This document shows positions 3,589 through 28,211 of a stretch of DNA of 64,000 nucleotides, in pieces. The DNA is from Labyrinthula sp. Ha (taxonomy: Eukaryota; Sar; Bigyra; Labyrinthulida; Labyrinthulaceae): assembly GCA_015227615.1 (NCBI GenBank), contig JAALGZ010000038.1:1-64000 (forward strand), in the 5' to 3' direction. A program made the position numbers and the translations under genes. The stretch's first letter is position 1. Every line of letters starts with the position of its first letter. The notes beneath the pieces were generated by a model that made no database searches, was not told the DNA's origin, and saw only the letters and a program-made list of their open reading frames with translations.

Positions 3589-4189
3589 CCATTAGAGAAA
3601 GTTAAACAATCTATTTAATTCAGCTATATGTCGCAAGAGTTCAATGACAGGGTCAGCTGAAAAATCAGTAGAAAGTATATTCCTGGTTAGAGATTGAATG
3701 TTAGGTGTTAATAAATCCTTGCAAAAGTACTTAGTTTCTACTTATACTGGCTTCCTGAGTATATAAATTGATTTTGTTATAGGACTTTCTATTCTATCTT
3801 GGTGTGTTTTTACCATTCGAGCTTCTTCCTCATCTTTTCGTGTATTCTACATCTTGATTCTGAAATTCTCATTTACACCGTCTTAGTTCTGTATTGTTAC
3901 TGAGGAAAATTAAAAGTTCAGAGTGTTTAATTTTGCTACTTGGGCATATAGCCGCGAGGATTCCCTTGAGTCTAGTAGCAGAGATCCATCTTTTTCAAGA
4001 ATTTGAGGAGTTTAGATAAGCTACTCAGTAAGCCTATCGTATTTAAGATCGTGGACAGTATAGGCTTTTAGCATACTCATTTCCAGCTAAAAGAAATTTA
4101 AATTTGAATTCAATATTTTTCCAACTGAATATTTCGCATAAATTCCTTCCTAAAAGAGCATTATTACGACTACCTCCACTGCACGAACT
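3589..4189. other. Intergenic, nothing recognised
   Basis: AT-rich sequence between the doubtful ORF and the left LTR. No coding or RNA signal seen. The last four bases (AACT, 4186-4189) are the left copy of the target-site duplication of element 1. Confidence 0.5.
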
Positions 4190-4426
4190 TGTCTTCGCTG
4201 GTATACCTCCTGACTCTTTCTTCAATCGTAGATATTGTGTGTTAACAGTTAAATATGACAGATATAAACGGTTAGAATATAACAGAACCGATATAAGTAG
4301 TATATTACAAGGTAGTACATACAAGGGTGTGTACATGTCCAATATAGCAAGCGTACACATGGGTGTGTACCGCCTTCTATGTCAACGAATATATTGCTAG
4401 AACGACTATCACGTCCTTTGAGGACA
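4190..4426 (-). repeat. 3' LTR of element 1
   Basis: 237 bp, TGTC...GACA. Differs from the other LTR at two positions by eye. It holds two tandem hairpins (4315-4334 and 4353-4370) with the same GTACACA/TGTGTAC-type stem. The left hairpin has one mismatch in this copy. Confidence 0.95.
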
Positions 4427-4435
4427 TCCCCCCTT
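4427..4435 (-). other. Polypurine tract of element 1
   Basis: AAGGGGGGA on the minus strand, directly against the 3' LTR, where plus-strand DNA synthesis starts in this class of element. Confidence 0.75.
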
Positions 4436-4449
4436 GAAGGAGAGAAGTG

Positions 4450-6240
4450 CTATGCACTTGAAGGTGTGTAAACAATATGAGCTTTAGCATCAAGTTCTAT
4501 TCCACAGCTGCTCCAGTTCTGGCGTAAATTGTTACTTCTGGCGAACATCTCGAACTTGTTGCAGTGAGGAAAAACAAGATCCAAGATCCAGTAGAAAGTT
4601 TCGGGCTTAGCTGAAGGTTCTAAAGGAATAGTCTTGATTGAGTTTGAAAAATGATCTAATTTGTATTCTCCAAAAGTGTCTGAATAGTAAATAGATTCCT
4701 GTTCTCTCCTTTGAAATATTAGGCAGGTCTCTTGAGCATGTTGTAAGAAATAACCTAAACTTTTAAATAAACTTCCAGATCTATGTGATTTGATCCAGGT
4801 AAAGATGTCGATTAAATAATAATTTAGAGATTTGGCCCAAGACAAGGCGCAATGATAAGAAGAATTCGTAACCCACAAAAATAAATAACTTCCAAAAGGG
4901 AAGTGTTGTAAAGGTAAATCTAATTTCATAAATTCAGAGTTAGATAAAGTTGGGTAGTCCAGTGTGATTCCACGTGTAGGATTTGAATTGCCTATCTTCC
5001 ACGGAGGATCAACCACTAAGATTTGAAAAATGTTGTGTTTTGAATAAGGTTTTTCGAATTCCAAATCAAAGATGTTTTGTCTAAATAATCTGGTATCGGG
5101 TGGAGTAAAGTAGATTCTTCCATTACATCCTAAAAGGGTATAGTAATTTCCGCCATTATATTCTAGGATTACCTTGTCGCCTGATAATAAATCCACTGAA
5201 GTAAGTTGCACTTTATTGTCAATGAGAGCCAAAGAGACTGAAATTGAGTCTTGTCGGTATGAATAACTACTTGGTGTATTTCGTAGTTCATCAAATTCTT
5301 GGCAAAAGGTAATAGATTTTGAATATAATGTAGATAGATCAGTCCAGTACGTAGAGGAGTTTAATAAAGTTTTGTAAAGAGTGTCGAGTAATAATTCACT
5401 TCCTTCAACAGCTTTTACTAATGGTTCTGATAGATTAAGTATTCGTGATTTTAAAGCTTCAAAAGAAGAGATACCAAATTGTAGTAAGAATTGTTGACAT
5501 TCATCAGAATCAGCGTATTCCTTTTCCATCAACCTAAGATGTTTGAGGTTCTCGATTCTTCTGAAATAAGGGATCTTAATGTCTTCTGGCTTCGAAGTTA
5601 TTTCGATCTCTTGAGAAAATAAAGTTAGTATCTTTGTCTTTTCAATGTAGGTGTTGAAACGTCCAGGTAAGTTTTTGTGCATCGTTTTAATTCCAAAATG
5701 CTTTTGAAGAAAAGTTCTAAGTTCGACCACATCGAATCTTCTATTATGAAATATTCCAATAGACTGCAAGTTACATAGCCTCTGAATCTGGGTCGAGATT
5801 TGTTGCTTCGATCTAAAAGGTAAATAATCTCCTTCTAAGTGTTCAACATATTTTCCAGATCCGAACTTCATGATTAAAAGACGTAAAATGTTCTTCTCCT
5901 CTGGTAACCATCCTAGGGTATTTCCCCCCGAAATAAAATGAAAATTTAGTTGTTTCTGAAACTTCATCGAGGATAAACGAAAATTGAGGCTGTTGACACG
6001 TGCAAGCTGATTTCTTCTTGAAACATCATGATCTTGTAGAATTCTTGAAATAAGCATCTTGAGGTTATTGTCGTCCATATTTTGAACATAAGAAGTAACT
6101 AGAATAGGAACATCTTCATAAATAGTAACAGCTGGTTCCCAGGTGTCTTGATCATGTTCAAATCCTAACCAGCGGATTTTAAACTCAAAAGAGTTATTGT
6201 CTGTAGCTAATCTACATCCAACAATGCTTTCTATTTCCAA
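4450..6240 (-). CDS. Pol C-terminal module of element 1: chromodomain, Myb-like region, MT-A70 methyltransferase
   Basis: C-terminal part of the retroelement Pol. A chromodomain lies at about 6079-6240 (pattern F-K-I-R-W-L-G-F...D-T-W-E-P), a fold that reads methylated histone tails. At 5716-5919 is a stretch W-x-x-E-E...G-S-G-K-Y...LPFRSKQQIS that resembles a Myb/SANT helix-turn-helix. The last 210 residues (about 4470-5090) match MT-A70 enzymes: DPPW at 4999-5010, then a YPTLSNSEF block, LFLWVT, TWIKSHRSG, and F-A-R-x-x-N-x-x-x-N-W near the end. METTL3/METTL14-type enzymes carry the same series. The expected reaction is N6-methylation of adenine in RNA or DNA using SAM. It follows the integrase GPY/F region (WIGPYQII) with no gap, so it is part of the element rather than a neighbouring host gene. 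Target and activity are inferred. Confidence 0.85.
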   Translation of the reverse strand: MEIESIVGCRLATDNNSFEFKIRWLGFEHDQDTWEPAVTIYEDVPILVTSYVQNMDDNNLKMLISRILQDHDVSRRNQLARVNSLNFRLSSMKFQKQLNFHFISGGNTLGWLPEEKNILRLLIMKFGSGKYVEHLEGDYLPFRSKQQISTQIQRLCNLQSIGIFHNRRFDVVELRTFLQKHFGIKTMHKNLPGRFNTYIEKTKILTLFSQEIEITSKPEDIKIPYFRRIENLKHLRLMEKEYADSDECQQFLLQFGISSFEALKSRILNLSEPLVKAVEGSELLLDTLYKTLLNSSTYWTDLSTLYSKSITFCQEFDELRNTPSSYSYRQDSISVSLALIDNKVQLTSVDLLSGDKVILEYNGGNYYTLLGCNGRIYFTPPDTRLFRQNIFDLEFEKPYSKHNIFQILVVDPPWKIGNSNPTRGITLDYPTLSNSEFMKLDLPLQHFPFGSYLFLWVTNSSYHCALSWAKSLNYYLIDIFTWIKSHRSGSLFKSLGYFLQHAQETCLIFQRREQESIYYSDTFGEYKLDHFSNSIKTIPLEPSAKPETFYWILDLVFPHCNKFEMFARSNNLRQNWSSCGIELDAKAHIVYTPSSA

Positions 6241-6299
6241 CTGCTTAAAATTGTGAACGAATAATGCTTTCAACTTCTTGCTGCCAATAGGGCGAGTAT

Positions 6300-9200
6300 G
6301 TGAATAAAACCAAATGCGTGATGAATGGACAGTTCTAGTCTTCCCTAAGAGAGACTCCACTAAATAGACGTTGCTTGACAAAATGTCTATTATTTGATAG
6401 GGTCCTATCCATGAGAGGCTAGTTTTAGCATTTGCATGTTGTGTACCATGTTCAGAAACTAACACCCAATCCCCAGGTGAGAATTGTAAAATGGGCGTAG
6501 CAGTTTTATTTCTCCTGCTATTTTCAGCTTCTTGTTTAAGCCTCACAACTTCAAAAGTTTGATTTTGTATTGTGTCTAAAGTAGTGATAATATTTTCAAC
6601 ATCAGAAAACATGGCTTCTTTGTCCAAGGGCTTATGAACTTCATTGCCGACTGTTATCGCAAAATGTTGTAAATCACGTTCTATTAAAGGTGTATTCAAC
6701 CTATGATATAAAAATAACTCGTTAGGAGTTCTTCCATCTCTTCTCTCCATAGGTTTACTATTGATGATGTAAGTTATTAAAGATAAAATGCTAGGCCATT
6801 GGGATTCGTGTAATCCGAACTGACTAACTAGCGATTTGAGATAGTTTTAAATGCTATTATTTGCCGTCTCTACTGAACCATTAGTCCATGGCGAGTAGGC
6901 AATAGTAAAATTTTGTTCAAATCCAATTGATTTACTCAAGTAGTGTAGTAAATTATTTGAAAAATGGGACCCATTGTCCGTAATTATTAAAAAATATTCT
7001 GCAAAACCAAAGTTTGCTCTCCATAATAGAAGAGACTCTGCCATTCCTCTTGCGGTAGGCGTTTTATGAAAGGTAAGTTGAGTCTTTCTAGTTGCAGAAT
7101 CTAGTAATACTAATATATAACCTGTTTGATTAATGTAAAGAAAATCAGCACGCAATATTTCGCGTGATTTCTTAGCTAAATGCGTTAGGTGATATGGTCT
7201 CCGTATTATGCGAGGGGACTTTTGACAGTGTAAACACCTGTTTCTGTAAGAAGATAATAAAGAATTTAAATCTTTTTTCCTGATTCCCTGTAAATAAACT
7301 TCGGACAGGTACTTCTTTTCTGCAGAAGCACTAGGATGTCCTCTTAAAATATGGTTCATAATAATATAGCGAGGGATTAAACTTCTTGGTATTACTAATA
7401 AATCATCTTTGTAGTAAATTCCTTCTTTAATTTGAAAATCGGACAATGAATCAGAGTGTAATCTATGTTGATGTTTCTTTAAAGTATTGAAATCTATTGA
7501 TTTAAAAGAGATGTTCGGGTAAAATGGTGAAAGGTAAGAAATGTGTTCGTTCAATAATTCTTGTTGAAGGTTAGAACGATTGGTTGAGACTGAAACTCTT
7601 TCTTCGAGCTCTGTCTCACCAAATGATAAATTAGAAACTTTAGCTGTTATACGAGCTAATTCTGGTTCTTGATTTAATACATCTAAGAAGTTAATCTCGT
7701 TAGAAGGCTTAATTGTTTTCCAATTTTTGAAATCTGGTTCAATATTAGCAACTGTTTGAATTTTTATCTTCTCTGGTTCCTGATCTGCTTCTGTATTTTC
7801 CAAAAACACATCTTGATTAACTTCAGAGTTCGATTCATAAATAAAGTTGCATCTTGAAATATTTGCCTCGTTGGTCTTCCCCCACCGGGTTAAGAGATCA
7901 GAGACAAAATTATCTCTACTAGAAATATGGAAGATGGTTAAGTCAACAGACTGTAACCTCAGAATCCACCTATAAAGGCGATCCAAATAGATTCGACGTT
8001 CATTTTGTTTGATTCTGACTACTGAAAGTAAGGCTCTGTGGTCTGTGTAAATATAGATCCCACCAGAGTGTGTCCTTAGAATAAACCCTATTCGCTCAAA
8101 AGCGTAAATAATTGGGTATAATTCTTTCGAAGAAATATGCCATCTTAATTCACTTGAAATAAAAGAACCCGATAGGAACATAATTGGTCTTGGTTTTAAA
8201 GTTCTGACGTCGTTAGTGACGTTCTTTTCTTCATCTTGAAAAACAGCAAGGCTCCAAACATCTTGAGAGGAGTCTGTAAAAAGTAAAAGTGGTGTTTTTT
8301 CATCATACATTGAAAGGAATCTTTTACTTGAATCAACTATGGCTTGTTTCAGCATCGAATATGCCTGTTCTCTTTCTTCAGTCCATTCGACCTCTTCTTT
8401 TAATCTTTCAACTTCAGATAACTTTTTTCCTTTGAGATTAGCATATTCTGCAAAGGGTTTTCTTAATTGAGAGAGCTTCGGTATATTTGGCGAGAGCCAA
8501 TTCGCTAAATAAACTAATTGTGCTGCCTCATGCCTGTAAGTAGGCTTTGGCATATTTAATATTTTTTTCAAAGAATGCTGGTGAAAAATTCCATTGACCT
8601 CTTTTAATTTCGCGGCCACACCAGATGGTGTGTTGTTCTCCGAAACCGCATTTTCTTAAATTGAAGCGGACTTTTCGAAATATAGCTCTTTGTAATAATT
8701 TTTCTAAAATAATGCATAGTTTTTCAAAAGAAGTTGAGTAAACGAGAAGATCATCTAACCAAGCTAGTACACCATTCTCTTCTGTATTGAATAAATAATC
8801 ACCATCTTGATCAATAACTTCATTAATTATGCGATCAAAGAAAAGCGCTGGGGTGTTTGACCATCCCATTGGTGCGCCATTTAGAGTGTAGGCACTCCTT
8901 CTTGTGACGAGAGTGAATATCTCTCTATGTTCTTTCTTTGTAGGCAGAAAGTCAAAGCCTGAAAGTATGTCCAAAGTAGCATAGAACTTAGTGTTCTTGA
9001 TGGACATTAGTTGCCTTTCTAAATTTGGCAAGTTTAAAGTAGTTGGTTGAGTTATTTGGTTCAACTTAATCATATTCGCTACCATTCGGTAACGATTGAG
9101 AATATTGTCTTCCTTCCAACTTTCGCGTTGACTGTTCGTCATCGTAGCCCAATCACTAGGCTTAGTAATCTTTTTTGTGACAACAAAACAGGATGGCCCC

Positions 9201-10560
9201 AGACTGGGTTCTTTGCTGGAGAAACAATACCAGCCTGTCGTAGAGCTTCAAACTTGAGCTCTAGAAACCTCTCCTCTTCTTTTGTCTGATGATAACCATC
9301 GCTCCTCAGGATTGAGGAGCCTGGTTTAAGTTCCACTTCTATGGGAGTTAGATTAGACATCTGTGCATTAGATTGTCTTAATCCCCATCCAGCACGATAT
9401 TTTGTAAATAAGTCTTTCAAGAAGTTCTGTTGCTGTAAATTAAATGTAGATTCAGAGAGTTTAACATTTATCATATTATTTATTTCCTTGTCTTCCTCCG
9501 CTATTTGAATATTACCCTCGCCGATGCCTATTTCGTTGAATTCTTCAGGCATGTTCTCTTGAACATTGGCTAGTAATACGGGAGTAACTTCGCTGTTATC
9601 AGGATCTCTGTCTAATTTTTCAAAATGAGCTGTTTCTAAGTCTTCAATGGGCTTTACTCTGAGCTCTCTAGCTTCGAGAGTTCGAATATATGTTGCCCCT
9701 TCTTGAGATAAAATAGTTGGCGCATCATTATAAAATTGAAGTGTGGGGGTTTGATTAAATAAACTTAGAATAATCTTCTGTAAATCTTTCTCGATCTCAT
9801 CATATTCCAGTTGTACATCTGTGTCCTGTTGATGTTTAATAATTGAATGATCTAAATTGTTTTTATGGAAAATAAAATATCTTAATACACTTGGCCTGAA
9901 TATTTTGTGAAATTCTTCTGAAGTAAAATCCTTTTCCTGAATAAAAATAACTGAATCTGCTAATTTATAACCACTGCTATAAAAAGTATTGAAAATATAG
10001 AATAAGAATTGAATGTCTGCTTTGATAATATAAAATGTAGAGTGTGATCCTGAATTTTTAAAGAATGATGTAATTTCCTGCTTGTTGAGTTGATTAATAT
10101 AAATCTCCACTGTTGGTCCTTCCAAAGAGTCGTCTTGAATGCCGCGTAAAGAAGGGATTGGTTTAGATATCTGGACTTCGTTTCCACCTTTATCCTATTT
10201 TTCCTTTTCTTTGCTATGATCAGCTTGTGCGAGATCTAACTTGATTCCAAAGTAGTTTAAAGTTCTTTTACCTATAATAACTTCATCCCAATTGGGATCG
10301 TCTACTACAAAAAACTTCTGAACACCTATTCTGAAACTAGTTTCCCCCTGTTTAAGCATAGCCCTAGAGTAGACCACCTTCTTTACTTTCTTCTTAGTTT
10401 TATCCGGGAACTGGACCTCCTTTATATATTGCGGGTCTTCCGTCTTTATGGTATATTGTTCCAACGTCTACAGACTACTAACGTTGTAGTCTGCTCCCGT
10501 GTCCGCAATACCCTTTACGCTGGTATATTGCTTGCTGGAGAGGTGAAAGAGCATCAGAGT
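6300..10560 (-). mobile_element. Protease-RT-RNase H-integrase region of element 1
   Basis: Fossil pol region. A retropepsin motif (DTGAD) is followed by the reverse transcriptase fingers and palm, including the polymerase box (LAWLDDLLVY, near 8735-8770) in the W-x-D-D form that element 2 also uses. RNase H shows LLLFTDSSQD, SSKELYPIIYAF and YTDHRALL. The integrase has a CLHC zinc half-motif, a D of the core in RADFLYINQTGY, TDNGSHFSNN, and SPWTNGSVE for the catalytic glutamate, then a GPY/F subdomain. Order and motifs are those of Ty3/gypsy. The region is interrupted by several breaks. Confidence 0.9.
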
Positions 10561-11916
10561 GATAGGTGTGGCGCTGTTGCCTATTCTTCTAAGGACAATG
10601 CAACCGACGTTTCTTAGTTGCTTGCGCTTTCTGTATTCTTCATTATGATAAGGTGGAAGATGTGATGTTTTAAGTCCAGTGGTTTGCTTCTGTTTGACGG
10701 CCTTTTCTCTTAAAACGAATCTTCTTTTTATCATTTTAGATCTTAACTTTAGTAGATCCAACTCCTTAACATCCAAAAGCATCTCGTCTACATTGAAATT
10801 GAACGCTTCTGGAACTTTTGATAATATTGTTTTTAAGATCTTCTTTCTGTTTCTATTCATCTGCTCTTTATTAAGGAACTTTAAAATCTTCATTGCCTCA
10901 TCCATGAAAGTGTAAATCTGGTCTTCTGGAAGCATCTTCTTTGTCGGCCACTTTAATACAGTTTGAAGTAAAAATATGCTCCTAGAACGCTCCGCTTTAT
11001 AATAATTCTGTAGATGTTTTTTGAGATAATTCATAATTGAGTGCGACTCTTTTATGTTTACTCCTCTTTGTTGTAAGCTCTCAGTTACCCCGCTTGAGAT
11101 CAAGCTCAGTATATTCATTGGAACGTTAGGTAATGTCGTTTCCACTTCATGAACAAAAGATTTGATTTCTTCGTATGTGAGTGAAGATAATTTCTTAGGA
11201 GGAGTTATATGAATCACTGGGTATCCACGAGCTGTATGTGGAAATGCTGAACTCGGAGTGTTGTAGGGCTCAAAGTTGTTCATATGGAACTTTCTGTCCA
11301 CATAGGTACTTCCAGTATCTGACCAGGGATCGATGCTGCTGTCTGCAGATGTTCGTTCTTCATCCTTCTTTGACTTTCCTGTGTATTCGGACTTTTTTGA
11401 AGATGTCTTTGATTTGTAACTTTTCGCTTTAGAAAGAATTGTAACTTTTGATGCTTTGGAAGAACGCGATTTCTTTGTAAGGGTTGTGATCTGACTTTGT
11501 GTATCTTCATCTTGGGTTATTGAACTTCTTGAAGTTAAAGCTGACGTAGCTCTTGAATTCGCTACTGACTTTGTGTCACCAGTTTCTTTAGCATCTTTAA
11601 GCCTTTCCTCCACTTCAGTTATCTTAGCTAACTTCTCTGCGATATCTTTTTGGATTCTTTGCATCCTTTTCCTCTCTTTGATAATAGCTTTGATATTTTC
11701 GAGATCTTTAGGTCCATACTGTGCAGATCCGCCGCTGCTTCTTGGAGACTTTCTAGACGCTTTTGTGGGAGTTTTCTCTGGGGACGCAGTCCTTTGTGGA
11801 GATGTGCTTGGATTCTGGCTTTGATCATCTTTTTCGATATTCTCTTGTGGATTACTCGGTTCCGTTCGATCTTTCAAAGGTTCATTAGATGTTTTCTCTT
11901 TAGATTGAGGAGTCAT
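10560..11916 (-). mobile_element. Gag-like region of element 1
   Basis: The first reading frame after the 5' LTR; its ATG is only about 20 bases into the internal region. The N-terminal third is highly charged and Ser/Thr/Lys-rich (KASRKSPRSSGGSAQYGPKDL), with a coiled-coil-like stretch after it. The middle (HITPPKKLSSLTYEEIKSFV onward) resembles a retroelement capsid in helix content and position. No CCHC zinc knuckle is seen, unlike element 2. An AQYGP motif is shared with the Gag of element 2. Identification rests mainly on position. Confidence 0.7.
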
Positions 11917-11923
11917 CTGTACG

Positions 11924-11935
11924 TTACTCGAGTAA
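11924..11935. repeat. 12-bp perfect palindrome at the primer-site position of element 1
   Basis: TTACTCGAGTAA directly abuts the 5' LTR. This is where a tRNA primer-binding site, normally starting TGG, should be; none is present. Confidence 0.8.
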
Positions 11936-12172
11936 TGTCTTCGCTGGTATACCTCCTGACTCTTTCTTCAATCGTAGATATTGTGTGTTAACAGTTAAAT
12001 ATGACAGATATAAACGGTTAGAATATAACAGAACCGATATAAGTAGTATATTACAAGGTAGTACACACAAGGGTGTGTACGTGTCCAATATAGCAAGCGT
12101 ACACATGGGTGTGTACCGCCTTCTATGTCAACGAATATATTGCTAGAACGACTATCACGTCCTTTGAGGACA
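11936..12172 (-). repeat. 5' LTR of element 1
   Basis: 237 bp, TGTC...GACA, flanked on the right by AACT. It contains two hairpins with tetraloops: 12061-12080 (GTACACAC-AAGG-GTGTGTAC) and 12099-12116 (GTACACA-TGGG-TGTGTAC). The element's promoter should lie in this copy, reading to the left. Confidence 0.95.
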
Positions 12173-13095
12173 AACTACACAGGCAAGTTCTTTGGTTTAT
12201 CCTCCGAAACAACAAAAAACTAGCTGATATTGAAACAAGAGTTCCTCGCTTTTTTCTTACAATTTTTTTCTATGTGCTGTAAGTTAACCTATTTCAAATT
12301 CGATTTGACCAAAGTATATTGCATAAGAAGCCCCGATCCCTAAATTTTGAAAGCAAACTACTTGAGTCAGTCGCGCACAAACTGAAATGACAAGGAATAG
12401 TTAGTTTAGGGAACTTCAATACTCACGATGGGTAGATTAACCCATGTTCCTTAATTATAGGATCGTAGAGAATCATCACTGAAGGTGCTATCTGCTGAAG
12501 AGATAACATTCTTTGGACTATTGCAGGCGAAGAATAGTTTTGGAGTAGATACAAAACCGAAAGCTCCTATGCCAAGAAAGCATGAGCTAGTTACATTAAA
12601 TATCCGAAAATTTAATATTTAGTTTAATAAAATGCATTAGTGGGTATTTCATTCAAGATCCACGTCTTTGATTTTGGGCGAAGCTTCACTTTATGATATA
12701 CTTTGGGCAACTTCAAATCTAATTGTTTTCTCCTAATAAAATAAAACTTATACAAAGTAACTATTTAAGAAAATAATAAATAATTCTCATAGTACAGCCC
12801 AAAATAGTAACATTAATCTTAGATATGTTTATCCAATCTCTCCCATTGTTACGGGAGTTAGAGGTTCTCATTCCATGTGTTCTGGCTGATATCGTGGAAA
12901 ATAACATTTATATAAACTATAAATTTCGAAAATATAACTAATTTTTCCCTGCTTTACTTTCTATCAATTCTGTATAATTTCGTTTTGTGAATTGTTTGGT
13001 TCTATTATATTATAACTTTATAGAGAATACAAGAGTCAAGTATGTAACAAACTGGGAATTCCCCAAAATTAGTAGCAATCAATGACTAGAGACAA
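12173..13095. other. Intergenic region upstream of the DEAD-box gene
   Basis: AT-rich, no gene seen. Near its right end is TCCCCAAAATT (13060-13070), 26 bases before the helicase start. The same 11-mer lies at 3-13, upstream of inhibitor-2, so it may be a promoter element. Confidence 0.4.
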
Positions 13096-14739
13096 ATGGC
13101 GAGGAAAAGAAAGAGAAAACAAAAACCACAGAACCCAGACACGGAGACAACCCAGATTTCACCAGAACCACCGAAAGAAGACCCAAAATCAACCGAAGTA
13201 ACACCTCTAAATACCAAACCACCGTGCGAACCAAATGAACAACCCAAACACGCTTCAAAACCAGAGAACTCAACAGAAACAACAAGTTTCTTCTCCAACG
13301 CAAAGTTCAACTCATTGAAAATAAATGAAAAACTGCTTACGTCACTAGAAAACAATAATTTTGAGTCTATGACTCCAATCCAAGCTCAATCCATCCCACA
13401 TCTGCTAGCTGGAAAAGATCTACTAGGAGCAGCCCAAACTGGTTCTGGGAAGACCCTTGCATTTCTTGTACCGGCAATTGATCTTCTTTACAAAACAGGG
13501 TTCAAAGCAAAAAATGGAACTGGAATCATTACAATCACACCAACCCGAGAGCTGGCAATTCAAATATTTGAAGTTCTTCAAACATTATTGGAATCTTTTC
13601 AACAAACTGCTTGTTTGTGCATTGGAGGAAACAATAGAAAAACAGAGGCGCAGAAATTACTCACTGGAATGAATTTTCTTGTTTGTACTCCGGGAAGACT
13701 TTTGGATCATTTGCGACATGCTGATTTTGTATACAGAAATCTGTTAATGCTTATCATCGATGAAGCAGATAGACTACTGGAAATTGGTTTTGAAGAAGAT
13801 TTAAACCAAATTTTGAAGATTTTGCCCACGTCAAGACAAACTGTGTTATTCTCTGCAACACAATCTGAACGAGTAGAACAATTAGCAAGACTGTCTATAA
13901 AGACAAAACCTGTTTTTGTGGATGTTCGAAGTAAAGTACAAGCTACTCCAGAAACACTTTCTCAAGGATACGTATGTTGTCCAGGTGATAAACGTTTTCT
14001 TCTTTTATACTCTTTTTTAAGAAGAGTGAGAAAGAAAAAAGCGATGGTATTTTTTTCATCATGTGCGAGTGTTAAATTTCATTCTGAGCTACTGAATTTT
14101 ATTGACTTGCCCGTAAGTGAAATTCATGGAAAACAAAAACAAAATAAAAGAAGCTCAACATTCTTTGAGTTTTGTAAAGCTGAAAAAGGGATTTTATTAT
14201 GCACAGATGTAGCTGCTCGAGGATTAGATATTCCAAATGTTGATTGGATTGTTCAGTATGATCCTCCAGATGATCCCAAAGAATATATTCATCGAGTAGG
14301 AAGAGCAGCTAGAGGGTCATCTGGTAAGGGATCTGCTTTGCTTTTTCTTACACCAACTGAATTAGGTTTCATTAGTTATTTGAACCAATCTAAAGTTGAT
14401 GTCAAAGAATATGAGTTTCCAAAGTCTAAGGTGAAAGATGTGCAAGGACAGCTTGAGAAGCTAGTAAGAACTAATTATTATCTTCATCGAAGTGCGAAAG
14501 ATGCGTATAGAGCATATTTATTAAGCTATGCGTCACATGCAAGGAAGGATATATTTGATGTATACAAAGTTGACTTGAAACTTGTTTCTAAATCTTTTGG
14601 GTTTGATATTCCACCGAATGTGAACTTGAACTTGAGTGATAAAGGAAAGAGAAAGAAAAAGAAAATTGTGGATGGAAAACAGTGGGCTGAACAGAGAAAT
14701 AGGAATGGACCTGATAAAAGACAGTTTGTGTATCATTAG
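13096..14739 (+). CDS. HAS1: DEAD-box ATP-dependent RNA helicase, Has1/DDX18 type
   Basis: 547 residues, single exon. After a basic, low-complexity N-terminus (KRKRKQK) the helicase core starts near residue 65. Motifs in order: Q motif MTPIQAQSIP (92-101), Walker A AQTGSGKT (113-120), PTRELA (149-154), TPGRLL (198-203), DEAD (222-225), SAT (253-255), and in the second RecA domain ARGLDIP (374-380) and HRVGRAAR (399-406). The region after about 450 (YYLHRSAKDAYRAYLLSYASH) is the DUF4217 extension typical of Has1/DDX18. These enzymes work in the nucleolus on 60S and 40S ribosomal subunit assembly. DDX10/Dbp4 also carries DUF4217, but overall length and the KLNFFSNAKF-like lead-in favour Has1. 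It converges with the RasGEF gene, 194 bases between stops. Confidence 0.92.
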   Translation: MARKRKRKQKPQNPDTETTQISPEPPKEDPKSTEVTPLNTKPPCEPNEQPKHASKPENSTETTSFFSNAKFNSLKINEKLLTSLENNNFESMTPIQAQSIPHLLAGKDLLGAAQTGSGKTLAFLVPAIDLLYKTGFKAKNGTGIITITPTRELAIQIFEVLQTLLESFQQTACLCIGGNNRKTEAQKLLTGMNFLVCTPGRLLDHLRHADFVYRNLLMLIIDEADRLLEIGFEEDLNQILKILPTSRQTVLFSATQSERVEQLARLSIKTKPVFVDVRSKVQATPETLSQGYVCCPGDKRFLLLYSFLRRVRKKKAMVFFSSCASVKFHSELLNFIDLPVSEIHGKQKQNKRSSTFFEFCKAEKGILLCTDVAARGLDIPNVDWIVQYDPPDDPKEYIHRVGRAARGSSGKGSALLFLTPTELGFISYLNQSKVDVKEYEFPKSKVKDVQGQLEKLVRTNYYLHRSAKDAYRAYLLSYASHARKDIFDVYKVDLKLVSKSFGFDIPPNVNLNLSDKGKRKKKKIVDGKQWAEQRNRNGPDKRQFVYH

Positions 14740-14933: not shown

Positions 14934-17039
14934 TCAAAGGAACCCACCACCTTCAAGCTTATTAATAAAACTATTTGATATCACTTCCTTTTCTTTTCTA
15001 CTATACTCGACGAGAACTTCTAATGTCGGAATGTAATCAAAGTCATGCAATCTCCTTACAAGACCAAGAGCATTCTTTTCTAGCAGCCCTCTGTTAAAGC
15101 AGTTTGATGCTTCAAAATTAGTCATCCCACCTTCTAGGAAACTCTTTATATGCGAGTATCTTCTAGATAGTCTCAGAACATTTACTAGCTCTTGACCTTC
15201 TATCTCCCCTTTCGCCGGTACGTCGTCTTCCAAAGGAATCAAGTACCGCATAGTATGCCCTAAATATGGAACATGGGCTCTCCTCTTAAACTTAGATAAA
15301 TCTGCTTTATGCACCAGGTAATTATTATCTGGTTTCACAGCCCGATTTAAATAGCAAAACGTAGTATGATCTTTCTCTTTTACAAATTCCCACAACCAAT
15401 CCAGAAGAGGCTGATTTAGTGCCCCCATAACCGCAAAGAAATAGTGAAAGTTGCCCACTTTTCGCAACTGATGGGCTAGTTCTAACATATAACACAAGCG
15501 ATAAACTCTCGCTTGAACTTTCCTATCAAACTCGCCTTGGGAATCCAAAGAAACTCGAAACGAATTTGACCAGATTCGCTTCCATTGAGAATCTAAACTA
15601 GCACCGTTTGAAATTAAATAAGGTTCCTCCATTTTAACATCACCCTGAAGGATATAATGAATTGCCCACCAACTCACAAAATTAAACTTCTTTTGAACTA
15701 ATTTGTAAGAATTTGATGTTTCTCTGACTGAATCATTTCTCAGCTCAACAAACCTAACTTTTTGAAGTAATCTGTGAACATCCAGGGTCAAAAAATGAGC
15801 AACGCAAACTGGTGATTCATACTTTAGTTTACCTATTCTCCGCTTCAAACGAACATGTTTTGACAAGAAACTTAATTTATGATTCTGTTGCTGAGAGCCA
15901 TAGGAACTAGGCAGAGAGCTGGGAGAAATTTCCCTATTCTCTGTAAAGTCCGGAGGTGATCCAGTTAAACTCTCACTTAATTCTTTGAGATCTGGGGAGG
16001 ATTTAAAGGCATCCTCAGGCTTGAATCGTTTTGAGTTCGACTTACTTCCATGTTGTCGTAAAACTTTGGAAAAGTTACGTATTGATGAAAAAGCATTTGT
16101 CGGATGAATAGATAATTTCTTCCTTATTTCGTGTGTTAAATTCTCAGTTGAGGGTTCTTCAGTAACAAAGTATGTGGTTGAACGTAATGAAGTGGCTTTA
16201 AAGATTGATTCCAATCTATGAAGCAAAGCCAGGAGCTCATCAGAAGCAGTCAAAGAGAGTTTTATAAAATCTTTCAGGTTGTTAAAAGATTCCCGACTTA
16301 TCAACACCTGCAGAAGTTTCTTTCGATCCCAATCAGTAGATGTAAACTCTTCATCATAACAGGTGTTGAACCGCACAAATTCCAACAACGAGGTTAACCA
16401 AGCTTCCAAGAAATTCACAACTGCACTCTTCCTTTCTCCTAAATCAGCAGAATTAATTCCGGTACCGAAGACCTTTGCCATTATGCCGCTTTTCTTTGAG
16501 TCTTTCAAAACAATGGCGTTGATATTAGAATTAAACCCCGATGAGGGATATGTATTGGCTCGAGGTCTTTTCTTTGAGAAATTTTCTTTGTATACATACG
16601 AATTCGCTCTATTTGATTTCTTAGAACCAAACATTTGACACACTCTATAAACTCTTAATACTTCTTTTCCCCCTTCTTTCTTTATATTTATAGAGTATTT
16701 TTCCTCAACCGACATATTTTCCTTAATTAGCCGTTGAAGTATCAACAAAAGTTGATCGAAAGAAAAAATTTCATTGGAGAAGAGTGAAAATGCTTTTATG
16801 TAGTCAATTTTGATATTTTTCAAACAAGAAATCTTTTCTTCTCCAAATATCAGATAAATAAGAAGACCTTGTAGCGAAGCGTGTGTAATTTCCACATGTT
16901 TAAGTCCGTTTTCCAAAGAACAGGCCTGTTCGCCCAAGTCGAACTGCTGCAGCTCAATGTCAGATTTTCTTCGAGTTGTTGATCGAGAAAGACACGTTCC
17001 ATAACTTAGTTCAGCAATAAGTTCTAGGGTATCTTCCAT
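14934..17039 (-). CDS. Ras guanine nucleotide exchange factor (RasGEF, Cdc25 domain)
   Basis: 701 residues, single exon. The N-terminal 130 residues (SLQGLLIYLIFGEEK...FSNEIFSFDQLLLILQRLI) look like the RasGEF_N/REM module that props up the catalytic helical hairpin. A Ser/Asn-rich linker follows. The Cdc25 catalytic domain covers about residues 420-680: VAHFLTLDVHRLLQKVRFVE, NFHYFFAVMGALNQP, NNYLVHKADLSKF, VPYLGHTMRYL, and a C-terminal helix pair. The family loads Ras-type GTPases with GTP at membranes. No SH3, DH or PH domain is visible, so recruitment is unknown. The start is the first ATG of the open frame and gives a complete REM module. The minus-strand upstream region begins at 17040. 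Confidence 0.9.
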   Translation of the reverse strand: MEDTLELIAELSYGTCLSRSTTRRKSDIELQQFDLGEQACSLENGLKHVEITHASLQGLLIYLIFGEEKISCLKNIKIDYIKAFSLFSNEIFSFDQLLLILQRLIKENMSVEEKYSINIKKEGGKEVLRVYRVCQMFGSKKSNRANSYVYKENFSKKRPRANTYPSSGFNSNINAIVLKDSKKSGIMAKVFGTGINSADLGERKSAVVNFLEAWLTSLLEFVRFNTCYDEEFTSTDWDRKKLLQVLISRESFNNLKDFIKLSLTASDELLALLHRLESIFKATSLRSTTYFVTEEPSTENLTHEIRKKLSIHPTNAFSSIRNFSKVLRQHGSKSNSKRFKPEDAFKSSPDLKELSESLTGSPPDFTENREISPSSLPSSYGSQQQNHKLSFLSKHVRLKRRIGKLKYESPVCVAHFLTLDVHRLLQKVRFVELRNDSVRETSNSYKLVQKKFNFVSWWAIHYILQGDVKMEEPYLISNGASLDSQWKRIWSNSFRVSLDSQGEFDRKVQARVYRLCYMLELAHQLRKVGNFHYFFAVMGALNQPLLDWLWEFVKEKDHTTFCYLNRAVKPDNNYLVHKADLSKFKRRAHVPYLGHTMRYLIPLEDDVPAKGEIEGQELVNVLRLSRRYSHIKSFLEGGMTNFEASNCFNRGLLEKNALGLVRRLHDFDYIPTLEVLVEYSRKEKEVISNSFINKLEGGGFL

Positions 17040-18217
17040 TTTTGTCTATATGTGAGTAACGCTTCTCACACCTTGAATTAAGTTTTTGTTGATGTTTACT
17101 TTTGAACTTTGCTTTCGGATTTTAAACGTTAAAGAGATGTTGCTGCTGAGTTTATTGTAGAGATTCGATCGAATATTTTAATATATTGTAAAAAAATCAG
17201 TGTAATATTGGTATATAATAGTGCATTACCAGTTGTTTGTTGAGTAAAGTGAAGATGTCTTTAATATAATAGAGTGGCTTCAGATATATTCGATAAGTAA
17301 TTCTACTTCATTAGAAAATACAACTTCATTGCTCTAACATTTGTTAAAGGAAAAAGTTAAAGGGAGTACATCAATTCTTCAGAGGTTAGACTGCAGTTTT
17401 ATTCAAGAAGCAGCCTCAACTTGATGATTTGTACTATTTTACTCCTGAGTTCTGAACTCTAAGATTGAAGTATAAAGAGTTTTGAGTCTCATGTTCTTTG
17501 TAAGTGAGTCTAAAAGCTTAGGAAACTAAGATTACAAGAAGATCATTCTGCTCTATGACTTAATCATTAATTAAGTTTTGATATCGCAGGATGAAATTTC
17601 GAGTAGGTGTAGCCCCCTTTGCCATATGTTCTAACGAATTGTTCGTTGGGTACGACCCATGCTGTGCGAATGTATTCTGCGCTATCAGCAACCCTAGTTG
17701 CTTTGGAACTGAACTGTAATTTTCATCATCAAGCTGTGCTTGGCCGAAAACAATTCTTTGAGCTACAGAAAACTCAAGAAGCAGTGAAAAAAAATGGTGT
17801 ACTTCCTTAATGTTAAAACGCAGATAAATGGCTATGGACCACAATAGGCTTACCATCTATTTCATACTGCTTAGTTTTTCTTTGCCAGTTTCATACTTTT
17901 CCTGCATTGACTATACTTCAGTCATAATAATGGAAACTTAAAATGAATAGTAAGTTATGCTCCGTATCTCTTTCAACTTTTGCTGCGAGGTTTTTATACA
18001 GATTCTTAGCATTCTGACAGGAGCTTCGAGTGGCTATGTTAGTGGATATGTACCACCAATATACTGAAGAGTCCCTGTGAATTGTCCACTGCTCTCTACA
18101 CCACGTTCAACATAATTTATCACCAAATAATTCATTTTTTTAAGCATTCAGAGTATCATTCGCCTCATTCGGTTCAGTTCCAGCCAAGTGATACTTGGAG
18201 GGGGAACATAGAAATTG
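17040..18217. other. RasGEF upstream region and unassigned ORF-like sequence
   Basis: The first 500 bases are AT-rich and presumably hold the RasGEF promoter. A 98-codon open frame on the minus strand (17560-17856) reads plausibly (LDDENYSSVPKQLG, IAQNTFAQHGSYP) but I recognise no family. It may be debris belonging to the transposase relic to its right. Confidence 0.3.
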
Positions 18218-18760: not shown

Positions 18761-18905
18761 TAAGGTAGAATTTTCTTAGTAGAGGTTTGGCTAATCCTTG
18801 TAATGATAAAGCAACGGTTACAGTAACAGTTTTGAATAAAGGTAATCTCTATCGTGTGTGCAATAGTAAATTCTTGTTAGAATGATACAGCATATGTGCC
18901 ATTTT

Positions 18906-19395
18906 TGTACACTCGGAAAACCCTCGAGCGTTCAGACGTATGAGAACGTGCTTCCACAGTAGAACGACTGCGTTCTACGTCTCTCTGTATCCGAAGTAAC
19001 TATTGGATACAACTAGATCGCTCTTATTGCTAAGGGATCTATCCACAGACTTTGTAATGGCTCTCTTCAAGCCACAAACTCCGATACTATGCTAAGTATC
19101 AATGCAATAAACTCACAAGGCGTTGTTAACACTCAGGGGTTTCTGCACTTATCGAAAACTGTGTCTTAGACGAAAATCTATGAAGTTTTCAAAATGTTGT
19201 TATTATCTATTAACTCTATTTCTGATCGCCCAAAATACATATGTGATATTTATTCTACTTACAATTATTCTATAGGGCTTCAATTAACTTACACAAGTAA
19301 CCATACTGTTGACAATAATTCAAATACTATATATGTTATACGAAGTTAGTTAAATAACCCAAGTTATCTGAAACGTTACTAATTAAACATACACA
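18906..19395 (-). repeat. 3' LTR of element 2
   Basis: 490 bp, TGTAC...ACACA. It contains a perfect hairpin at 18959-18978 (GTAGAACG-ACTG-CGTTCTAC) and a second 6-bp stem further right (GTATCC...GGATAC). Confidence 0.93.
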
Positions 19396-19410
19396 TCCCC
19401 CTTCTCATCT
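19396..19410 (-). other. Polypurine tract of element 2
   Basis: AGATGAGAAGGGGGA on the minus strand, directly against the 3' LTR. It ends in the same G-run plus A as the tract of element 1. The last coding triplet of Pol reaches it. Confidence 0.75.
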
Positions 19411-21083
19411 TAAAAGAGGTGTACCTCTTTTCCATTCGTCGACATACCACAACCAAAGGCAACCCCACTTGATCGAGGATCGACTTCGAATCCCAATTGA
19501 ACCCAGTCTTTTCGCAAGTTGCAGCACCTTGCAAAAAGCTCAACCTTAAGGGTGTTCCTTCCAAATACTGACTCAAAATATTCATAAGCCCTCAAAGGCT
19601 TCACACCATTTTCTAACCGATCAGCCCACAATAACTCTGTTTCTCTCAGCTTATGAGTCTCATCAAGAACCTTCTCTTTCTTAGTTCTAGACACAAACAC
19701 TAGCAGCATTTCTGCCGAGTGTTGAAAGTAATAACCCAAAGATGTACGCAAGACCCCCGACTTGGTACATTTAATCCAGTCAACTATGTTAACTAAGTCA
19801 TACTGGTGTTTGTCAAAATGTTGTAAGGTTCTGCCTAGATTCCTTTCGATAACCCAGATAGCAATGAATGCCGGCTTCATGTTCTCAAAAGGTATATCGA
19901 GGACCTCAGAATCTTTGCATTTAGGATATCGAGTTCGGATCCCTCTCACAGGATTAAAGGTGCCAGTAGCCCATGGCGGATCGACGAGGAGAAGATCAAC
20001 CTCATCACCTGGCCATAGCGCAACTGTATTCCCTTCATAAACGTCAGCAAAATACCAAGTTCTCTCTCTTGGAAACATGCAAACCTTTACCGAAAAAGGC
20101 CACAACTCGCTCGACAAGTCAAATATATTGCCATACAGTTTAGTTAAAGTGAAGTTACCTATGTTGTCTACTTGCATAAATATTCTTAAGTCGGAGCTCG
20201 TCTCTATATTCTCACTACTTATTTGAACATTTTCTACAGTTTCCACCAAAGTTACAGTTCTACGGTCATCCAAAATATATCCTTCAGGGTTACCCACAAA
20301 CGATATCCCCTCGAACACATATTTCGAGATCTCTAGCCATAAACCTTTTACTTCAGTCAACTCCTGCAAGCAATCTCTCACCTTAGAAACATCCTGCCTC
20401 GCCTTTGATTGCATCCTCTCTACTTGCCGGCGGAATGCTTTCCCTGCACCTTCTGGTATCACGAAGCTCATCAATGATTTCGCCGTCTCAAAAGAATCAT
20501 ACTTCCACGAACACAGAATATTCTCCACTGGAAAATTATATTCCTGCTTTCGATCTTCCGAGGCTATATCAATTTTTCTACCATTAAATCCAGCCAAGCT
20601 CATGATTCCCATAGTTCTCTGAATATATGAGTACATCATTGCCTTCGATTTATGTGGCATGAACTTCGTAAACGACTCAAAGTCGCCCATACCGAAGCAT
20701 TTTACGAGACATCTCATAACAAATTTGTCCAACTCAGACCAATTCTTTACGTAGAAAGGAACAGCCTCTCGTTCCTCCCACCAGTTACCTTCAACTAGGA
20801 GATGCGATCTCAGATTGGGCCTCATTTTACCCACCCATCTAACATTGATATCGCCTAGGATATGTCTCTCGATCCAGGCCATAGCCCTCTTCGAGTTTCT
20901 TTTATCCCTTACAGGCTTCCTCTGATTCTCTAAGTATTTTATGACAAGTGATTTGACATCTCTATACATAGATCTGAGAGGTTCCCAAGTATCATCTCGA
21001 GATTCGAACCCTTTCCAATGGACATGTAACCACCATTCTCCATTAGAGTATCGCAATCCATGGAATCTCCCCACTTCAAGCTC
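19410..21083 (-). CDS. Pol C-terminal module of element 2: chromodomain, Myb-like region, MT-A70 methyltransferase
   Basis: The same module as in element 1, strongly diverged. The chromodomain is at about 20925-21083 (W-L-H-V-H-W-K-G-F...D-D-T-W-E-P). A possible Myb/SANT-like region lies at 20559-20741 (NWSELDKFVMRCL...GMGDFESFTKFMPHKS). The MT-A70 domain covers about 19452-20054: DPPW at 19971-19982, then a GIRTRYPKCKDSEV block, IAIWVI, DWIKCTKSGVLRTSLGYYF, and E-L-F-A-R-x-x-N-x-x-x-D-W. Both copies also share an NIFDL motif just ahead of the methyltransferase. The likely reaction is SAM-dependent N6-adenine methylation; whether the target is element RNA, its cDNA or host chromatin cannot be told. 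Co-linear with Pol, therefore part of the element. Confidence 0.85.
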   Translation of the reverse strand, partial: ELEVGRFHGLRYSNGEWWLHVHWKGFESRDDTWEPLRSMYRDVKSLVIKYLENQRKPVRDKRNSKRAMAWIERHILGDINVRWVGKMRPNLRSHLLVEGNWWEEREAVPFYVKNWSELDKFVMRCLVKCFGMGDFESFTKFMPHKSKAMMYSYIQRTMGIMSLAGFNGRKIDIASEDRKQEYNFPVENILCSWKYDSFETAKSLMSFVIPEGAGKAFRRQVERMQSKARQDVSKVRDCLQELTEVKGLWLEISKYVFEGISFVGNPEGYILDDRRTVTLVETVENVQISSENIETSSDLRIFMQVDNIGNFTLTKLYGNIFDLSSELWPFSVKVCMFPRERTWYFADVYEGNTVALWPGDEVDLLLVDPPWATGTFNPVRGIRTRYPKCKDSEVLDIPFENMKPAFIAIWVIERNLGRTLQHFDKHQYDLVNIVDWIKCTKSGVLRTSLGYYFQHSAEMLLVFVSRTKKEKVLDETHKLRETELLWADRLENGVKPLRAYEYFESVFGRNTLKVELFARCCNLRKDWVQLGFEVDPRSSGVAFGCGMSTNGKEVHLF

Positions 21084-21099
21084 ACCCCAATTATTGATA

Positions 21100-24000
21100 A
21101 AGATTTTTCTCAATGCGTCATCCGGCACGTACCCTGAGGGCTCGTAAAAATACAACCTTGAAGCATGAACCGTTAAGGTCATACCGTTCAAGAGTCGCAC
21201 CCGGTACACATTATTGCTAAGTACCTCCTGTATCAATACAGGGCCAGACCACTCAAGCTTAATCTTGTTAGTCTCTCTCGGCGTCTTAGCAGTGCTAATG
21301 AGACATCATTCACCTACCTGGTATTTGAGCAAAGCCTTATCAAAACGCTTCCTCCTTTTATTCCAGTAGGCATTTCTTTTAGACTTCATCAGAGACACAT
21401 AGTCAGCAACCCGATCCTGATACTCATCAAGTTGATCTCGAAAATTCTTCGACAACTTAAACAAGGTATCCCCATCCGTATCTATTACCTTCACTTCCCC
21501 ACCTACCTTTCTCGAGATCAACCTCGGAAAAGCAGCAGCTTCAATATAATCCTTCTCAGGATTTATGAACAGGAAAAGTTGGTTTGCACAAGGCGCCTTA
21601 CTCCCCTGGAAGCTTCCTAGACATGATGGGTAGATCGTTCATTGCCGCCTGTATAGTGCCCAGTACTAAAGGCCATTCATCCCATTGATATCTTCTCTCC
21701 GATACAAGGGCCTTCAAAAAGTCAAGTACTTTTTTGTGTACCACCTCAATTTCACCGTTCGTCCAACTCTCGTAACTCACCGCGAAGTTGTGGGTGAAGC
21801 CAAGAGCTTTTCTCAATTTTTCCAACACTTGGTTAGCGAAGTGAGATCCTCGATCTGTCACAAGGGTGAAGTTCGATTCTAACTTCCAATTACTGTTGAA
21901 ATCTTCTAAGGCAGATACCACTGTCTCGGCGTCAGCCTTAGGTGCGTATTTTAAATAGGTGAACCTCGAGAAAGCATCTGTCAATACGAGTATGTATCCC
22001 TTCGGATTAACATACAAGTAGTCGGACACTAGCACTTCTCTTGGTGCCCTAGCCTCAGTGACTATGCTTAATGCAGTCTTCAATAACGAAGGTCCCTTTC
22101 GACAGTGAGCGCAATTTACTTTAAGATCCTGAAAGATGCTCTGTAAAGTTGCCCCTTCACCATATGTCTTAGGGATGATCCATGCATATTTTGAAGCTTC
22201 CGCTACACAGGCACTCACCGGTCCATGGTGACCCGCAAGGTGAATGTGAACCATCTGTCTCTCGAAAAGGGTTTCAGGTATCACAACCTTGTCGCCGGCT
22301 CTTGCCAGCTTGATGCCATTGCCAAGTCCTTCAGCTTCCTGACCATCAAGCAGTTCGGCCTCAGAGATGCGCTTCCACGAACCTTCATAATATGGGTTGA
22401 ACGCTGAGACTCGATCCTTATCGAAGGCTCTCATCTGTTCATACGTTCTTTTCTCCCTTTGCTTATTCGGGTTCAGTCTGACAGCGTTCACCGTGACCCT
22501 GAGTATTTCGTCATCTTCGGTTGCAGTACCAAGATCTTCGATCGTTGGACCCGAAGACTCCTCGTACTCGGCTTGTTCTGTTACCCAATCAAGGATATCA
22601 TCGAAGGTCACTGCTGACTCATCGACATCCTTGAGAAGAAACTCCTCTCGAACCTTTTCTCTAGGCTTCCTTGCGAATGCCAGGCCCCCATCTTGACGAG
22701 TTTCATACTTGACGTCATCGTCGAGATACCAAGTATCGAAGCTATTCTGGTCAAGCATCGACCTAACCTTGATATCCTCGGGTACTCCAGGGACCATCTC
22801 CCTTAGCTGTTCAAGCTCTTGGTCGGTCGGTGATACGAACATCCTTCTGTAGAAGTTACGTTCCCCTGTGTTCAAGGATTCCGGAGGTGGATCCCTAACC
22901 AAAGCCCTAGCGGCTCTAATCTCTCGGTCTTTCCCTTCGACCCGGGATGCCCACCTTGACAGCATATCGGCGAAGATGTTACTTTCACCATCTACGTGGT
23001 AAAGTTCAACCTGAGCCTGCTGCAAAGTCAGCACCCACCTTTGTAGCCTATTAAGGTGTCTATGGTTAATCCTGGATCCACCCTTAATTATGGCTCTGAG
23101 GTTCATATGATCCGTGTACACCTGTATTGGCGTTGGATGATATAGTAATAAATACGAAAGACGACTGAACGTCTTCACAATCGGGTACAGTTCTTTATGA
23201 ACGATACCCCACCTCTGTTGATCCTCGCCAAACTTGCCAGAGAAAAACATCATAGGAAACACTGTCTTCTTCAACAATGACTTACTCCTCTCAGATGACC
23301 CAGCTTGAAATACTATAGCGCTATGGTATTCCTTGCTGGCATCTGTCACCAGTAACAAATCCTGGTTACGATCATAAGTCTGCAGCTTCTGTTTCGCCGC
23401 TAAAGACAAGATCCTTTTGAACTCCTTGAAGTCGTCAGACAATTCGTCCGACCACTCGACACGTTCGTTCTTGCGTTTCAGGTCAGACTTTTCCCCCTTT
23501 CATTTGTGGGTACTTAGCCATAACCTTACCCCTAAGCTCCCCGAGCTTCGGTATGGCCAGTGATAGCCATTGCGCAAGGTGAAGTATCGCCGCGAGTTGA
23601 TATACAAACTCCGGCCTCGGAACTTCGAGTATTTTCTCATAATACTCCTTGTTAAAGTTCCATTTTCCCCCTTCTACCTCTCTTCCGCAATAACTAATCC
23701 TAGTCGAGAATATGGTAGATTTCTGAGGGCTGATCCTTACCTTAACCTTCCTAAGGTTTTCAAAGAATCTCTTCAATACTTTAATAAAATTATCAAAGTT
23801 GTCTGCGTAGATCAGACTGTCATCAATCCATTGGATGATGCCATGACCATGCCTACCCTCGACTTCTCTGCCCACCACATGCTTCACCATCTGCTGGTGG
23901 AAGAACACGGGGGTCGAGTGGTATCCCATGGGTGCGAAGTTCAACTGGTAGGTCCCATGTTCGGACACTATATTGAAATACTTCTTCGCTTCTTCGGTAG

Positions 24001-28189: not shown

Positions 28190-28195
28190 CTGAGG

Positions 28196-28211
28196 AATTG
28201 TTATAACAATT
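28196..28211. repeat. 16-bp perfect palindrome at the primer-site position of element 2
   Basis: AATTGTTATAACAATT directly abuts the 5' LTR start. As in element 1, it replaces the expected TGG-type tRNA primer site. Confidence 0.8.

Follow-up and report, generated by a model that had tools for sequence, protein, structure and literature searches.

Element 1, a young LTR retrotransposon of Ty3 domain order, lies on the minus strand at positions 4190–12172 of the window (the whole analysed stretch of 64,000 nucleotides), and the tail of its integrase is predicted to combine a chromodomain, a p1-type Myb domain and an MTA1-type adenine methyltransferase. Sequence comparison establishes how the domains are ordered, that two of them resemble MTA1 and p1, and that this pair recurs across element families. 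As for function, we lean towards a reading in which this tail methylates the newly made copy and its flanks, so that the insertion would be permissive and unsilenced. Element 1 has the following features.

4186–4189, no strand: target-site duplication AACT, left copy, flanking the LTR
4190–4426, minus strand: 3′ LTR, member of a direct-repeat pair with TGTC…GACA ends
4427–4435, minus strand: purine run resembling a polypurine tract and adjoining the 3′ LTR, read from 25 bases
4450–6846, minus strand: open frame of 798 aa from stop to stop (ORF list) with integrase C-terminus, chromodomain, p1-like domain and MT-A70
4498–5028, minus strand: MT-A70 domain, predicted MTA1/AMT1 type (Pfam E 4.1e-20, 72.9 bits, cut-off 23.9; residues 607–783)
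4513–4545, minus strand: FARSNNLRQNW, SAM-pocket motif with the equivalents of MTA1 F355, R357, N359 and N360
4999–5010, minus strand: catalytic DPPW, its D being residue 424 of window:4453-6279:-
5725–5922, minus strand: p1-like Myb domain, p1 being the DNA-binding partner of MTA1 (PDB p1 6.6e-6; 12-copy profile 4.9e-18)
6082–6237, minus strand: chromodomain (Pfam Chromo 8e-9, 35.7 bits, cut-off 25.1; residues 204–255)
6310–6405, minus strand: sub-threshold integrase C-terminal (GPY/F-like) match (Integrase_p58_C E 0.005, 17.3 bits, cut-off 27)
6889–7170, minus strand: integrase core (rve; Pfam 25.4 bits, under the cut-off of 32.6)
7948–8301, minus strand: RNase H (RT_RNaseH; Pfam 57 bits, cut-off 24.8)
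8639–9094, minus strand: reverse transcriptase (RVT_1; Pfam 52.1 bits, cut-off 29.6), in a frame of its own
10468–11967, minus strand: Gag open frame of 499 aa from stop to stop, its first codons inside the LTR
11936–12172, minus strand: 5′ LTR, the other member of the direct-repeat pair, with TGTC…GACA ends
12173–12176, no strand: target-site duplication AACT, right copy, flanking the LTR

The two LTRs of element 1, which start with TGTC and end with GACA, are mismatched at 2 of 237 bases, and the AACT on both outer sides constitutes a 4-bp target duplication. Because the LTR pair and these duplications enclose the MT-A70 domain, it lies within one inserted element, where it shares a frame with the integrase C-terminus and the chromodomain. 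The original prediction of an MT-A70 domain within the Pol of a Ty3-like chromodomain element is thereby confirmed, the Pfam score being far over the cut-off, and both the DPPW and the terminal F-A-R-x-x-N-x-x-x-N-W motif that it described are found in place. It had also set the methyltransferase directly behind the GPY/F part and chromodomain; the order and the common frame hold, but the p1-type Myb domain intervenes and the GPY/F match stays below threshold. Pfam matches give the order RT, RNase H, integrase in the Pol of element 1 and of the scanned copies. Among PDB sequences, the chromodomain matched that of MPP8 (3.6e-4). The Pol of element 1 is broken: frame changes separate the RT-side frames, and a single in-frame stop precedes the last frame, which carries the chromodomain and MT-A70 and is open. 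An AlphaFold2 model of window:4453-6279:- reached a mean pLDDT of 45 on a five-row alignment. Searches for tRNA and Rfam matches found none within the 64-kb window.

Compared with solved structures, the methyltransferase domain of element 1 (METHYLTRANSFERASE) gave E 6.9e-32 for Tetrahymena MTA1 versus 1.3e-14 for METTL3, which scored about 57 bits lower, and METTL14 was not listed among these matches at E≤1 or at E≤10. The METTL3/METTL14 type that had been proposed for this domain is rejected on these scores, and its similarity places it with the MTA1/AMT1 type, the eukaryotic DNA 6mA writer. According to the accessible text of PMC9174199, MTA1 is the catalytic subunit of a complex that modifies ApT adenines of double-stranded DNA by methylation, and its activity is abolished by a change to alanine at D209 or N360, and likewise at D182. 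When 33 element rows were placed on MTA1 numbering (L026 was dropped, since no frame fitted the motif pattern; rows L033 and L052 represent one and the same locus), D209, K334 and F355 were kept in 33/33, and R357 and N360 in 32/33 each. The exact DPPW is present in 25 of the 33 rows; the other eight read DPAW (2), DPPG (1), DPPY (4) and DLPF (1), and one of them, L032, is also without N360. The D182 position carries D in 19 rows and N in 12, one of which is element 1; in 2 further rows it is K or R. Because of the changes at D182 and the missing DPPW or N360, some families may be inactive. Element 1 itself retains DPPW together with the equivalents of K334, E353, F355, R357, N359, N360 and E371, and departs from MTA1 at D182 (N) and N370 (I).

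The linker between the chromodomain and MT-A70 of element 1, searched alone against the PDB, returned three p1 sequences on top (7f4l_E, E 6.6e-6), followed by the next match at 0.24. With a profile of 12 copies (alignment A4), p1 was matched at 4.9e-18 over positions 4–68 of 74, while SNAPC4 (1.3e-11) and c-Myb (1.3e-9) were matched in the Myb core only (positions 4–52) and p2 gave a weak match (0.0027, positions 4–65). The p1 extension QS..F.GL..D is present beside the Myb-like core, as read from the alignments, and Pfam Myb is found in 7 of the 12 rows, with no match in the row of element 1. These 12 rows were chosen by eye from the linker sequences and not blind; the genome-wide p1 search described below was blind. 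A p1-type Myb domain in this position, upstream of MT-A70, links the module with the MTA1 complex, which methylates DNA.

The genome was searched in full (50.8 Mb, 153 contigs). The MT stretch of element 1 gave at least 126 scored matches at E≤0.001 (453 candidates), PF05063 at least 150 scored places over the cut-off (354 candidates), and the RT of element 1 at least 150 scored matches (543 candidates). The best 150 of the 543 RT matches were merged to 144 loci, and the MT matches (126 + 150 + 17 rows from the METTL3 search) to 244 places. At 123 of the 144 scored RT loci an MT place lies 3.07–6.99 kb downstream on the same strand, and as a control, an MT place in the wrong position (equally far upstream, or downstream but on the opposite strand) was found at 4 of the 144. 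Among the 21 loci that remained, an MT match with E≤1e-4, in some cases a short one, is present in 12 of the 13 stretches fetched, one locus has an MT 1.2 kb away, and four lie near contig ends. Related copies thus carry the domain, and the suspicion raised with the original prediction, that they might lack it, found no support. With the Tetrahymena p1 domain as query, at least 150 places were scored (307 candidates), and 129 of these 150 have an MT 322–1167 bp downstream on the same strand (16 further MT places having been added), compared with 1 of 150 in the control upstream on either strand. The two best p1 matches (C1:1284467 and C100:136111; 49% and 47% identity) lack a listed MT place nearby and probably represent p1 genes of the host itself; another 19 p1-like places are unpaired with MT. 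The predicted pair of p1 and MT is, by these matches, a feature of many divergent element families of the genome. As a rough estimate, based on 244 MT places of about 8 kb each in 50.8 Mb, many of them fragments, the elements may make up a few percent of the genome.

The window holds one more such element, and its features are as follows.

18904–28702, minus strand: element 2, divergent from element 1 but of the same type, with LTRs at 18904–19396 and 28210–28702
19488–19997, minus strand: MT-A70 domain with DPPW (Pfam 7.1e-18)
20529–20750, minus strand: p1-like stretch (alignment A4, row 2), sharing 24% identity with that of element 1

The LTR pair of element 2 shows 13 mismatches over 492 aligned bases. 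Elsewhere in the genome, Pol is a single frame of 1914–1929 aa in L010, L013, L014 and L023, and the more divergent families L049–L052 have one frame each of 1756–2660 aa. RT, RNase H and MT-A70 are over the Pfam cut-off in all six scanned frames (L010, L023 and L049–L052), the integrase core in three (L023, L051, L052) and also in element 2, and Chromo in four, being under the cut-off in L049, L050 and element 2. Integrase_p58_C, the GPY/F-like family that is under the cut-off in element 1, is over it in L023 and L051. The frame of L010 equivalent to Gag has 573 aa and ends in a stretch that weakly resembles an aspartyl protease (E 0.11). In L049 a protease-like stretch is situated between p1 and MT-A70 (Pfam RVP E 0.0018, 19.0 bits, under the cut-off of 20.7), and a DSGA motif was read by eye between the same domains in L050; with such a stretch at this point, the enzyme might be cut free in these two families.

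The substitution pattern indicates that the methyltransferase is under purifying selection. Between L010 and the sister-subfamily copies L017–L021, dN/dS is 0.05–0.09 for MT (five pairs), 0.02–0.04 for RT (four computable pairs), 0.04–0.15 for the chromodomain part (five pairs) and 0.10–0.15 for the p1 linker (four pairs), for pairs that are not independent and whose dS is above 0.9 and often saturated; for L010 versus L017 the values are 0.05 for MT, 0.02 for RT and 0.04 for the chromodomain part. Among the near copies (L011–L016), dN/dS of MT is 0.11–0.20 on few changes, above the 0.02–0.08 of RT. RT identity to L010 falls to 35–41% in L049–L052. When the RT and MT trees of 23 elements were compared, no conflict was seen at well-supported forks, although both trees leave several deep forks without firm support. 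The AU test does not reject one common origin for all element MT domains (p 0.42 and 0.34); L018 and L019 were left out of both AU trees, and METTL14 and two phage rows out of the first. Nor does the MT tree, from which AMT6/7, AMT2/5 and METTL4 were left out, show such an origin: the forks near its base are weak and the branching place of the element enzymes is without support. As a separate observation, ApT usage is 0.82–1.06 in the elements and 0.78–0.86 in four host genes; the elements tend higher, their composition differs, and nothing is drawn from this.

The host genome encodes an AMT1 at C91:220767, with E 2.2e-73 to MTA1. In species with AMT1, 6mA is found in transcriptionally permissive, H3K4me3-linked chromatin, as stated in the accessible text of PMC12695648. 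Because 6mA of the host AMT1 pathway marks permissive chromatin, an insertion carrying this mark would look like active host DNA. We propose that the integrase complex keeps the tail after reverse transcription, that the chromodomain may hold this complex at chosen chromatin and the p1 domain may hold DNA, and that the MT domain would then methylate adenines, probably in ApT, of the new copy and the adjoining DNA. The marked fresh insertion, resembling active host DNA, would be transcribed and not silenced. The element enzyme may act by itself, or host AMT6/7 and p2 may serve as its partners. Methylation of the new copy and its flanks is favoured by the retention of D209 in 33/33 and N360 in 32/33 rows, by the likeness to MTA1 and p1, by the recurrence of the domains in many element copies, by the low dN/dS of MT between L010 and L017, and by the presence of a host AMT1. 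Several observations argue against it: the D182 and DPPW positions are altered in some rows, the MT tree is weak near its base, MTA1 shows no SAM binding without p2 in the accessible text of PMC9174199, dN/dS of MT exceeds that of RT in near copies and dS between subfamilies is saturated, and the Pol of element 1 is broken. A further one comes from Trichomonas vaginalis, which has AMT1 paralogues, and where nanopore 6mA is reported on transcribed genes and not enriched in transposable elements (PMC12695648, accessible part). The fuller picture, in which these elements are mobile 6mA writers whose integrase, chromatin reader, p1 and MTA1 domains deposit permissive 6mA at the insertion, as an anti-silencing device that was assembled from two subunits of a eukaryotic DNA-methylating complex and has diversified along with the elements into many families, is put forward more tentatively.

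The strongest alternative, which we regard as rather unlikely, is that the MT-A70 part is a targeting or docking piece without catalysis, which, as an MTA1-like subunit equipped with p1, associates with the host AMT1 complex, or recognises 6mA-rich DNA close to promoters, and thereby steers integration to permissive sites. Ty3-type integrases are known to use chromodomains for targeting, and both elements of the window sit between host genes, but two insertions carry no statistical weight in this respect. As described in the accessible text of PMC9174199, MTA1 contacts MTA9 through its YLQH loop. This loop is FLQH in element 1, and of 8 element rows read at this point, 6 end it in QH or RH, consistent with docking; the equivalent loop is lost in L051 and L052. 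The 8 of 33 rows that are without an exact DPPW point in the same direction, but a pure docking piece would need neither the exact DPPW of the other 25 rows nor the D209, K334 and F355 that are kept in all 33.

Less probable than docking is that the methyltransferase shields the element cDNA from a nuclease or a defence directed against unmethylated DNA, or aids the host against DNA viruses. Such roles have been suggested for retrotransposon-coded DNA methylases in general (PMC6338049 and PMC5890265, as far as their text is accessible), but pure shielding leaves the link to a chromodomain and a p1 domain unexplained.

That the element's own RNA is methylated (m6A) seems more improbable still, since the likeness to MTA1 and p1 shifts the balance towards 6mA on DNA. 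METTL3 and METTL14 share the MT-A70 fold, and a single YTH-domain match in the host genome could be an m6A reader; the nearest relatives of the element domains, MTA1 and p1, are however parts of a DNA-methylating complex (PMC9174199, accessible text). With human METTL3 and METTL14 as queries, host AMT1 was the best match among the 150 and 142 places listed, at 134 and 56 bits, and the places ranked after it include long element frames. From a genuine METTL3 or METTL14 orthologue, far higher scores would be expected. In this exon-by-exon search, which an intron-split gene could escape, none of the listed matches to METTL3 or METTL14 surpassed host AMT1, so that the usual m6A writer seems absent. 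Finally, a one-off neighbour insertion or an assembly artefact that set an MT-A70 gene beside a retroelement is ruled out by the copy counts, for although a single copy with a broken Pol such as element 1 could mislead, the same order is met at more than 100 places on many contigs and in single frames of up to 2660 aa.

As in Ty3/gypsy chromoviruses, the elements have LTRs, the order RT, RNase H, integrase, and a chromodomain behind the integrase. They differ in the tail, which in element 1 continues for about 540 residues past the chromodomain with p1 and MT-A70, and in the protease-like stretch between these two domains in L049/L050. With the ciliate MTA1c/AMT1 complex (MTA1, MTA9, p1 and p2), they share an MTA1-type MT-A70, a p1-type Myb domain and largely conserved SAM-pocket residues, but here two of the subunits are predicted to be joined to an integrase in one polyprotein. 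Captured DNA methyltransferases in retrotransposons have been described before; the accessible texts of PMC5890265 and PMC6338049 report Dnmt3 in Gypsy elements, DNMTs in LINE and DIRS elements, and adenine enzymes resembling Dam in DIRS elements. KnitGypsy-Dnmt3 of Klebsormidium nitens is similar in that a DNA methyltransferase was captured in a Gypsy Pol and purifying selection is evident (PMC5890265), but its enzyme modifies cytosine and has the unrelated Dnmt3 fold, and the word "chromodomain" occurs nowhere in the accessible text of that report. The DIRS elements also encode an adenine methyltransferase, but of the bacterial Dam type and together with a tyrosine recombinase (accessible text of PMC5890265 and PMC6338049), as opposed to MT-A70 and a DDE integrase here. 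The Pfam matches of the scanned elements contain no Dam or phage-integrase family, but MT-A70 and rve instead, and no DNA cytosine methyltransferase family.

We found no report of MT-A70 or AMT1 in an LTR element in the openly accessible PubMed Central literature, covered mostly at the level of titles and abstracts. In the accessible text of the 6mA survey PMC12695648, the words "integrase" and "chromodomain" are absent, and the sole mention of "retrotransposon" concerns the Mavericks of T. vaginalis. What is new is the MTA1 type, the p1 partner, and the union of both with a chromodomain integrase. If the proposed function is correct, the elements would provide a natural integrase-tethered 6mA writer, and a comparison of fresh insertions with empty sites would give a handle on whether 6mA causes permissive chromatin or follows transcription. 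Elements would then be shown to imitate an activating mark of the host, and not just to use or evade a silencing one.

As for relatives elsewhere, none were found in a collection of genome contigs, and the whole tail had no match in viral contigs. Three loci in the viral contigs have short free-standing MT-A70 frames of 211–228 aa, and among annotated phages one Vibrio phage protein was matched at 25% identity.

As judged from the reading frames, production of Pol by read-through of a stop codon is suggested for the element copies at L010 and L023, loci elsewhere in the same genome, because Gag and Pol share a frame there and are separated by a single stop codon (1720-1722 and 8276-8278, respectively). 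No stop codon separates the two at L049 and L050, where Gag and Pol form a single continuous frame. These two copies also have a protease-like stretch that is placed not ahead of RT but towards the C-terminal end, where it separates p1 from MT-A70:

within L049:44-8023, minus strand: aspartic-protease-like stretch (weak Pfam match)
within L050:112-6945, minus strand: aspartic-protease-like stretch (motif read by eye)

The catalytic DPPW motif is replaced by DPAW, DPPG, DPPY or DLPF in L029, L030, L032, L036, L037, L039, L040 and L041, so that catalysis may be lost or altered in element families lacking the exact motif. The genome itself (G000) has AMT1, two free-standing p1-like frames and one YTH-domain match; among the matches listed in an exon-by-exon search, no METTL3 or METTL14 match scored above AMT1.

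Adjoining the 5' LTR of element 1 is a perfect 12-bp palindrome, TTACTCGAGTAA (11924-11935), which starts without TGG, the start of the usual tRNA primer site. Element 2 and the host genes, which occupy long open frames, are located in the window as follows:

1046-2203: SBF-like transporter, host gene
13090-14739: DEAD-box helicase with SPB4-type C-terminus, host gene
14934-17045: RasGEF protein, host gene
18904-28702, minus strand: element 2, a second LTR element, built like element 1 but divergent from it (LTR pair, MT-A70 with DPPW, p1-like stretch)

The LTRs of element 2 differ by 13 mismatches over 492 aligned bases, and a CCHC-like knuckle can be read by eye in its Gag-side frame (25346-26344). 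The region 29464-63908 contains six open frames of 394-422 residues, five minus and one plus, all on one repeated sequence family. Pfam returned no match for the one frame searched; by eye, the six appear membrane-protein-like, with a Cys-rich N-terminus.
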